This document shows positions 24,011-48,403 of a stretch of 64,000 bases of DNA, in pieces. The notes under the pieces were generated by a model that did no database searches, was not told the origin of the DNA, and was given only the letters and a program-made list of their open reading frames with translations. A program made the translations under genes and the position numbers. The stretch comes from Kribbibacterium absianum (GTDB lineage: Bacteria > Actinomycetota > Coriobacteriia > Coriobacteriales > Atopobiaceae). The DNA lies in assembly GCF_030067705.1 (NCBI RefSeq), contig NZ_JASJEX010000001.1:310001-374000 (forward strand), read 5' to 3'. Every line of letters starts with the position of its first letter. The first letter of the stretch is position 1.

Positions 24011-25257
24011 ACGGGGGAGGGCTGGCACGGGACCTCAAGCGTTGCTGGAACCGGTTCGCGGTGTTCCGCGGGCTGGCGGCCGACCCGGTCTTCGCGCGCT
24101 TCATCGAGCTGTTGACGGACCCGTGCCCAGACGCGGCCGGCGCCTTCGCGGCGTCGCTCTATGCCACCGGCACCGACCGGTGGGACCAGTACCTCCGCGG
24201 CCTCGTCTTCTCGGAGGAGACGCCGCTCGTGCGGTTGACTGCCGAGGGCGAGGCGGTGCCGCCGCTGATGAGCGAGGCCGCGGACTGGGAGATGGGCGTC
24301 CTCGAGGCGATGGGCGCCCTGAGCCCTGAGGACCTCGGCTTGTCAACGCCGCCCGGCTGGGAGTGCGGGGCGAGCGGCCAGAGCTGGCTGCTCGAGTACC
24401 GCGAGCATCTGGCGTCCATGGAGCGTCACGGGTTCGGGATCTACGCCCGGCACCGGGCGTTCCGACTGGCCGGGCCGGAGGAGGACCCGCGGCTCGCGCC
24501 GGTCTCGCACCCGGACGCGGTGTCCGTGGCGAACCTCTATGGCTACGAGCGCCAGCGCGCCGCCGTGGTGGAGAACACCCGGATGCTCCTCGCCGGGCTG
24601 CCCGCTGCGAACGTGCTGCTGTACGGCGACGCCGGCACGGGGAAGTCGGCCACCGTCAAGGCGACCGCCAACCTGCTGGCGCCGGAGGGCCTGCGGCTCG
24701 TCGAGCTGACGCGCACGCAGCTGCACCTGCTGCCGCGGCTCCTGGACGAGCTGGCGCACAACCCGTTGCGGTTCGTCGTGTTCATCGACGACCTGTCGTT
24801 CCAGGACTCCGACGAGGACTTCTCGGCGCTCAAGGCGGTCCTCGAGGGCGGCGTGTCCGCGCGAGCCGCCAACACGGCCATCTACGCGACGAGCAATCGG
24901 CGCCATCTGGTGCGCGAGACGTTCTCGTCGCGCGAGGGGGATGAGATCCATCGTCAGGACACGATGCAGGAGACCCTGTCGCTCTCCGAGCGCTTCGGCC
25001 TGAGGGTGCGCTACGACCGGCCGGGGCGCGACGACTACCTCGCCATCGTGAAGGGGCTCGCCGGCGAGCGCGGCCTGGAGCTGCCGGAGGGTCAGCTGGC
25101 CCTCGAGGCGGAGCGCTTCGCGACGCGAGCCGGCGGACGGAGCGCCCGTGCCGCGCGCCAACTCGTCGACCGCCTCTACGTCGATGTGCATTTAGGGACA
25201 AATGCACGTTGCATGATTGATGTGCAAGCAGGGACAGTCCCCGTTTGCACGTTGTAG
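24007..25257 (+). CDS. DUF815-family AAA+ ATPase
   Basis: A 416-residue P-loop ATPase of the DUF815 family. Walker A is [16 protein letters not shown], Walker B is [17 protein letters not shown], and a sensor segment [11 protein letters not shown] is followed by [18 protein letters not shown]. The N-terminal 150 or so residues are helical with no known domain. The family's function is unknown; it resembles a remodelling or loader ATPase. The start ATG overlaps the ilvD stop, so it is translated as part of the ilv cluster. The last 23 residues (394-416) are encoded by intergenic-type palindromic repeats and look like a secondary extension. Confidence 0.85.
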
Positions 25258-25258
25258 G
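25185..25258. repeat. Two palindromic repeats overlapping the 3' end of the DUF815 gene
   Basis: Unit 1 is an 8-bp inverted repeat (25186-25193 with 25200-25207) whose loop carries agggac. Unit 2 has an outer 6-bp stem (25222-25227 with 25245-25250), a 3-nt internal loop each side, and an inner GGGAC-a-GTCCC (25231-25241). Both units end in TGCACGTTG. They encode the last 23 residues and supply the stop codon of the DUF815 gene. They also occupy the spacer before ilvA, so they may act as a terminator or processing site. Confidence 0.75.
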
Positions 25259-25287
25259 TTTGATATCGCAGGGAGGGAGCACGAACC

Positions 25288-29870: not shown

Positions 29871-29896
29871 GGGGTCGCGGAGACGCGGCCCCTTTT
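29871..29896 (+). terminator. Rho-independent terminator after the small membrane protein
   Basis: A 9-bp stem (29871-29879 with 29884-29892, one T-G wobble), 4-nt loop, followed by TTTT. Confidence 0.8.
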
Positions 29897-29916
29897 GTGT
29901 GGGGCTCGCGGGAGCC

Positions 29917-30437
29917 GTGCGTGGCACAGGTTGAGCCTGCCGAGCCATGCGTGGCACAGGTTGCGTCATTCTGAGCCAGCCGAGCTGTGCGCTGCACAGG
30001 TCGGTTATCCCGGGTCGCGCGAGTTGTGCGCTGCACGGCTCCCGGCATTCGTGGTGTGCGCCGCACAGGTCGCAGCTGCCTGAGACAGGCGAGTCATGTG
30101 CCGCACAGGCCTTTCTTCTTGCTCCATGCGCGGCACAGGTTGCGTCAGGCTGAGCCTGCCGAGCCGTGCGCGTCACAGGTCTGGCGCTGCGGCCCATGCG
30201 CCCTGTGCGCAGCGCAGGTTGGGGTCGGCTGAGGCCGGCGAGGGGTGAGCTGCATGGGTCTGCAATTCCGGGTCGCGCGAGGTGTGCGCCGCACAGATCT
30301 CTCTTCTCGTTCTATGCGCTGCACAGGTCGCAGCTCCAAGAGTCCGGCGAGTCCTGCGCGACATACGTCCGATACCCCGGGTCGCGCGGCCTGTGCGCTG
30401 CACAGGTCTCTCTTCTCGTTCTATGCGTCGCACAGGT
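29917..30437. repeat. Array of 15 phased GTGC-NNN-GCAC palindromes
   Basis: Fifteen degenerate copies of a 15-nt unit (consensus GTGCGCTGCACAGGT, centre variable) start at 29917, 29947, 29987, 30026, 30056, 30096, 30126, 30166, 30205, 30245, 30284, 30314, 30354, 30393 and 30423. The intervals are 30, 39 or 40 bp only. Spacers fall into recurrent classes: 15 nt, including two identical pyrimidine-rich ctctcttctcgttct; 24 nt, usually with ccgggtcgcgcg; and 25 nt, often ending gcgag. The 40-bp interval breaks any reading frame, and no start with a ribosome binding site fits. Because the intervals are close to whole helical turns, a protein-binding array is a reasonable reading. Transcribed hairpins are the alternative. 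Confidence 0.85.
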
Positions 30438-30491
30438 TAGCGCCCCCGACGCTTCCCGCATCGCCTGATCGAGCTTTTTCGTCGCGAGGGG

Positions 30492-30550: not shown

Positions 30551-30625
30551 GGGCGATTAGCGCAGCGGTAGCGCACATCCTTCACACGGATGGGGTCACA
30601 AGTTCGAATCTTGTATCGCCCACCA
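30551..30625 (+). tRNA. tRNA-Val (CAC anticodon)
   Basis: A complete cloverleaf of 75 nt with encoded CCA. The acceptor GGGCGAT (30551-30557) pairs with ATCGCCC (30615-30621). The D stem is GCGC/GCGC, the anticodon stem CATCC/GGATG with loop TTCACAC (anticodon CAC, reads GUG), and the T stem ACAAG/CTTGT with TTCGAAT. The discriminator is A, followed by CCA. A terminator follows. Confidence 0.97.
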
Positions 30626-30633
30626 GAGAATGC

Positions 30634-30668
30634 GAGGCCGGGAGCATGAGCTTCCGGCCTCTTTGTTT
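30634..30668 (+). terminator. Rho-independent terminator after tRNA-Val
   Basis: A 12-bp stem (30634-30645 with 30650-30661, one G-T wobble), loop ATGA, then TTTGTTT. Confidence 0.85.
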
Positions 30669-30925
30669 GTCTCACATGGCACATTTCAGATCCGCTCAGA
30701 TTGCGCTTCTCAGCGCCGCCGCTATCGAAACTGGCATCTGGGCGGTTCAGATTGCACATTCCTGGCTTCGTCGGCTCAGAGTTGCAATGTGGATGCCCGG
30801 CTCGTCCCCAACATGAACCCGTCCCGCCCGTGTTTCCATCCGACCCCGCTTTACCAGCCCGGCGCAAGAGCGCGGATCGCAGAGGCTATCCTTCCTTTCA
30901 CGACTCTCTAGTGCGAGGAGGCCCT
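30669..30925 (+). other. Leader region of the histidine operon, no gene recognised
   Basis: A 257-bp, relatively AT-rich stretch before the hisZ-hisG fusion. It holds a CACATT/AATGTG inverted pair and three cAGATTGC-like words. TATCCT at 30887-30892 could be a -10 element. No His-rich leader peptide and no T-box consensus were found, so how the operon is controlled is not visible. Confidence 0.4.
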
Positions 30926-48309: not shown

Positions 48310-48386
48310 GGTGCCACGCACCCTGGGAGGAAACCTCCTGTGGTGCCACGCACCTGGGGAGGAAACCTCCTGGGGTGCGTGGCACC
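48310..48386. repeat. Nested palindromic repeats after nanE, with GTGC-NNN-GCAC cores
   Basis: GGTGCCACGCACC occurs at 48310-48322 and 48342-48354, and its reverse complement GGTGCGTGGCACC at 48374-48386. GGAGGAAACCTCC occurs at 48326-48338 and 48358-48370. The two kinds alternate with a 32-bp period. The copy at 48342 can pair over 13 bp with the copy at 48374, enclosing the second GGAGG/CCTCC hairpin; the copy at 48310 can compete for the same partner. Confidence 0.8.
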
Positions 48387-48403
48387 CCGGGAGGAGCCAT
48401 GGA

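Follow-up and report, generated by a model that had tools for sequence, protein, structure and literature searches.

What kind of element sets fifteen short palindromes, at only a few fixed distances, between the gene of a membrane-protein-like product and a tRNA-Val gene? We addressed this question in a stretch of 64,000 nucleotides (the window; C1:310001-374000, G+C 69%) from a genome of 2.18 Mb in 7 contigs. An earlier note had described 15 copies of GTGC-NNN-GCAC-AGGT between window positions 29917 and 30437 at intervals of 30, 39 or 40 bp, and all of these copies and intervals were recovered (Table 1). The 15-nt unit itself proved too short. Because the left arm is conserved as well, with an alignment of all copies giving the consensus G-A-C-C/T-T-G-T-G-C-NNN-G-C-A-C-A-G-G-T-C, the repeated element is better described as the 21-bp palindrome GACCTGTGCNNNGCACAGGTC. 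The 521 bp of the array, hereafter A3, contain 12 sites with at least 10/12 matches compared to at most two in dinucleotide shuffles of the window (n = 200), and the spaced three-unit pattern occurs twice compared to zero occurrences in 100 shuffles; array A3 is far above chance expectation. The order 30-40-39, amounting to 109 bp, is complete three times, making A3 a variant built of 109-bp blocks, and its spacers do group into recurrent classes, in line with the proposed growth by block duplication. Central secondary palindromes within the 39/40-bp spacers gave only a weak signal, on which we base no claim.

Table 1. Coordinates of array A3, its neighbours and the other arrays of the genome. 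Positions without a contig name are window positions; the unit start is that of the 15-nt unit within the palindrome.
Feature	Position	Strand	Unit start	Next interval (bp)	Basis
Upstream ORF, membrane-protein-like, 140 aa	29423..29845	+			
Terminator-like hairpin GGGGTCGCG-GAGA-CGCGGCCCC-TTTT, gap between upstream gene and array	29871..29896	+			by eye
Whole array A3, 15 palindromes of 21 bp	29912..30438	+			pattern search and alignment
Palindrome 1	29912..29932		29917	30	
Palindrome 2	29942..29962		29947	40	
Palindrome 3	29982..30002		29987	39	
Palindrome 4	30021..30041		30026	30	
Palindrome 5	30051..30071		30056	40	
Palindrome 6, degenerate	30091..30111		30096	30	
Palindrome 7	30121..30141		30126	40	
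Palindrome 8	30161..30181		30166	39	
Palindrome 9	30200..30220		30205	40	
Palindrome 10, degenerate	30240..30260		30245	39	
Palindrome 11	30279..30299		30284	30	
Palindrome 12	30309..30329		30314	40	
Palindrome 13, degenerate	30349..30369		30354	39	
Palindrome 14	30388..30408		30393	30	
Palindrome 15, last in array A3	30418..30438		30423		
109-bp block (30-40-39), copy 1	29917..30025	+			intervals
109-bp block (30-40-39), copy 2	30096..30204	+			intervals
109-bp block (30-40-39), copy 3	30284..30392	+			intervals
tRNA-Val (CAC), downstream of array A3	30551..30625	+			
Array	C1:301.92-302.19 kb				pattern and model searches, whole genome
Array	C1:303.42-303.69 kb				pattern and model searches, whole genome
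Array A3 (window array)	C1:339.91-340.44 kb				pattern and model searches, whole genome
Array	C3:319.97-320.46 kb				pattern and model searches, whole genome
Array	C3:330.43-330.66 kb	minus			pattern and model searches, whole genome
Array	C4:216.86-217.32 kb				pattern and model searches, whole genome

Array A3 is not the only one of its kind: when the entire genome was searched with the pattern and with a model, five further arrays came to light. Each of the six consists of 7-15 degenerate 21-bp palindromes, and the 65 sites define 59 intervals, which measure 39 bp (30 times), 30 bp (21 times), 40 bp (seven times) or 31 bp (once) and take no other value. All 24 matches to ACCTGTGCNNNGCACAGGT with up to two mismatches in the whole genome lie inside the arrays. 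At three mismatches, 66 places were found in total (10 for the reversed-pattern control), and those outside the arrays look like background. The six arrays are best taken as paralogous DNA modules that lie between genes and are non-coding. An isolated hit to the array model at C2:380847-380920 (L079:1048-1121), which is weak (E 1e-4) and contains ACCTGTGCCCTGCAC, is possibly the relic of a seventh array.

Turning to the neighbourhood, the protein encoded upstream of A3 showed no Pfam or NCBIfam match, and a scan of genome contigs with it found no relative. Two of the arrays enclose a gene for a 343-aa protein (P0001; L034:1361-2392, C1:302360-303391) for which ten matches, itself included, exist in this genome and none in Pfam or NCBIfam; its C-terminal half looks like a candidate PD-(D/E)XK nuclease. 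On the 3' side of the tRNA gene, window positions 30660-30810 carry loosely repeated GCACATT / CAGATTGC words, which may represent another degenerate repeat.

The paralogous arrays of this one genome served as a stand-in for a between-species comparison of spacing. A module with the intervals 39-39-30-39-30 is present in six copies in five of the six arrays (the copy from the C3:330 array without its last palindrome), and these copies align without gaps at 53-76% identity, as they also do in a free MAFFT alignment. Mean pairwise identity by column was highest in the core palindrome (0.82) and lower in the outer arms (0.59), the spacers (0.56) and the NNN centre (0.47), the outer arms being no more conserved than the spacers. 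The spacers are partly conserved, too, and two of the module's 39-bp spacers contain a further conserved box, which reads TTTTCCGATC in one of them and GATCGGA, the reverse complement, in the other. The tree that FastTree built from the six modules comprises 1.64 substitutions per site, corresponding to about 272 substitutions across 166 bp, with zero indels, a count that is somewhat biased by the choice of copies with matching intervals. Indels usually occur at 0.03-0.1 per substitution, and this ratio, applied to about 272 substitutions, leads to an expectation of 8 to 27. Over all arrays, about four one-base changes in spacing were counted (three origins of 40 and one of 31), and the other changes between arrays are by whole units. 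Because the arrays are homologous copies, part of their common spacing reflects inheritance. Nevertheless, since substitutions are frequent and the spacing is nearly constant, the arrays bear a signature of selection on distance, and the spacing itself appears to be selected.

The array pattern was found in no other genome searched and appears to be lineage-specific, the genomes searched including no second member of the genus. The exact pattern gave only stray matches and no array in 120 relatives, the 140 genomes of the family yielded three weak matches, none of them an array of this kind, and a translated query of 299 genomes of the order revealed no array. Likewise, no GTGC-N3-GCAC array is present in the syntenic regions of relatives, as located by xpt and tRNA-Val; a like architecture built on a different palindrome would have been missed in relatives. 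Among 84,980 species genomes, the pattern search returned one match and no array, and this match, in Solihabitans, was dismissed as a homologue because it is a different tandem repeat. Viral contigs contained no array and blastn against phages and plasmids gave no match, whereas four matches to a short two-motif pattern were discarded since they are not arrays; a phage, plasmid or viral origin was rejected on the basis of these collections. In one relative (G022), a region near tRNA-Val (L150:1195-1366) holds four TACTNAGTA palindromes (GCGCCTACTAAGTAC) at distances of 21, 100 and 42 bp, which differ in sequence from the array palindrome and form a further cluster between genes.

The earlier note had placed all sites on one face of B-DNA; an array of this kind would act through DNA bending or one-sided docking. 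While two of the intervals, 30 and 40, are divisible by 10, and every site fits a lattice of about 9.9 bp (best value about 9.88 bp, a non-B value; mean resultant length R 0.94), this lattice is a trivial consequence of intervals of 30 and 39-40 bp, and the intervals are not whole multiples of 10.4-10.6 bp. Over the 65 sites, a helical repeat of 10.5 bp gave an R of 0.12 and one of 11.0 bp an R of 0.14, and for 10.4-10.6 bp per turn R ranged from 0.12 to 0.17, i.e. random, so that the sites do not share a single face of relaxed B-DNA. With 10.5 bp per turn, 30, 39 and 40 bp correspond to rotations of 309, 257 and 291 degrees, 39 bp being the commonest interval; successive sites thus turn round the helix, and one-face phasing is very improbable. 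A repeat-hairpin RNA, also suggested previously, or an attenuator-like leader would be transcribed, and indeed each of the six arrays is situated behind a gene's 3' end, with a constant orientation with respect to that gene (by eye; five informative cases), and two palindromes passed a loose terminator scan. However, terminator-like hairpins recognized by eye precede two of the arrays, those of the window and of C4 (window 29871-29896; L033 about 1002-1050), the window hairpin being absent from a terminator scan that demands at least five Ts. Moreover, pairing is not compensated within the copies (400 paired arm positions compared to 415 +/- 6.9 expected from shuffles), the consensus structure reaches -2.8 kcal/mol with one compensated pair, shuffled sequences fold just as well as the array (z -0.14), and the only match in an Rfam search was the tRNA. 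Left and right arm strengths are even negatively correlated (-0.28, P 0.009), which, together with the unkept pairing, is as expected for half-sites that a protein recognises and that do not base-pair, and we regard an RNA function as highly unlikely. A decayed coding repeat, with frames reading C-x-A-Q-V...F-S-D, is scarcely credible: although 30 and 39 are divisible by 3 and several arrays contain long open frames, intervals of 40 bp shift the frame, as the earlier note had already pointed out, some arrays contain stops within it, and neither the differences between copies (0.31/0.38/0.37 by codon phase) nor the G+C content, flat across phases, show a codon-position bias.

The chief rival, possible although we doubt it, is a selfish or passive extragenic repeat of the REP/BIME type, multiplied by a RAYT-type Y1 transposase (perhaps lost) and by block duplication, without any function for the cell. 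Regular spacing and expansion by block duplication both occur among REP arrays (PMC3116915, PMC2817692), and the arrays studied here are regularly spaced, too, all of them intergenic and specific to this genome. Five Y1 transposase genes are present, some flanked by palindromes of their own, and the genome harbours a REP-like family, GGTGCCACGCACC with GGGAGGAAACCTCC, whose core GTGC-CAC-GCAC equals that of the array. Three GGTGCCACGCACC copies with GGGAGGAAACCTCC between them form a small array of 32-bp distance at window positions 48310-48395, and a similar palindrome with the same core adjoins the Y1 gene at C1:153992 (L110:1280-1354); these repeats and this gene look like a RAYT/REP pair. 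Because a common origin of this family and the array palindrome is possible, the mobile-repeat explanation stays alive. On the other hand, none of the five Y1 genes is flanked by the array palindrome (0/5 with a site of at least 14/18 matches in the 3.3-kb locus), which was therefore rejected as their cognate repeat. The high copy number of REPs with scattered single or double copies is not seen either, the 65 sites being contained in six arrays and the 24 best matches leaving no single-copy population outside. In addition, REPs maintain their palindromicity via compensating changes (PMC2817692), whereas the arm changes here are uncompensated (400 vs 415), and zero indels over about 272 substitutions would not be expected of a passive repeat. 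Elsewhere in the window, between two genes (25183-25264), repeats of the form GTGCA...GGGACAGTCCCC...TGCAC resemble those beside the Y1 gene at C4:32287 (L111:119-169 and 1042-1120) and constitute a second REP-like family.

A putative, non-coding protein-binding array, as already proposed in the earlier note, is still the best reading of the locus, and we give an about even chance to its specific form, a lineage-specific, spacing-constrained platform for a putative dimeric DNA-binding protein. According to this model, a sequence-specific dimer would occupy each palindrome and adjacent dimers would touch one another, perhaps together with a partner on the TTTTCCGATC/GATCGGA box. Such dimer-dimer contacts would fix the spacing and result in a cooperative multi-site nucleoprotein platform, which might organise or mark chromosomal loci or control nearby genes. 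One-sided facing on B-DNA would not be needed, and a path winding round the helix would suit steps of 30/39 bp better. A bolder version, which we consider rather improbable, is a chromosomal element without a described relative, in which a dimeric protein would wind along six paralogous platforms at 30/39-bp steps and thereby organise or segregate the chromosome.

Among the known systems, CRISPR arrays likewise combine short palindromic repeats with a regular distance. Here, however, the repeats are degenerate, only 9-19 nt separate the 21-bp sites, and the spacers are interrelated and fall into homologous classes, so that the earlier distinction from CRISPR, with its near-identical repeats and unrelated spacers, holds. 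The parS sites of ParB and the matS sites of MatP are palindromes read by dimers at several loci per chromosome, and the arrays resemble them in being palindromic and in occupying several loci on one chromosome. Whereas matS sites are scattered singly, the palindromes here form tight arrays, and parS sites resembling TGTTTCACGTGAAACA are absent from the array and restricted to C2:191-195 kb, where no array is located, the arrays residing on C1, C3 and C4; the G+C skew is too weak for placing the terminus. Iteron-type centromeres (parC/ParR, omega-type) consist of clustered short sites at fixed close spacing, with the protein winding along the DNA. The arrays share the clusters and the fixed close spacing but are chromosomal, present at six loci and made of 21-bp palindromes at 30/39 bp, and no partition genes were recognised beside them. 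To REP/BIME/REPIN elements with their RAYTs, to which extragenic palindrome arrays are usually ascribed as mobile repeats, they are similar as genome-specific extragenic palindromes, some in regular arrays, that grow by block duplication, and differ by far fewer copies, by the lack of a linked RAYT, of single copies and of compensation between the arms, and by a consensus in which the GTAG/CGTC tag is not seen. Should a binder be found, the arrays would provide a new and compact system in which to study the formation of a nucleoprotein filament on spaced sites, and functional arrays would become separable from passive REPs by sequence alone, on the basis of spacing constraint versus arm compensation.
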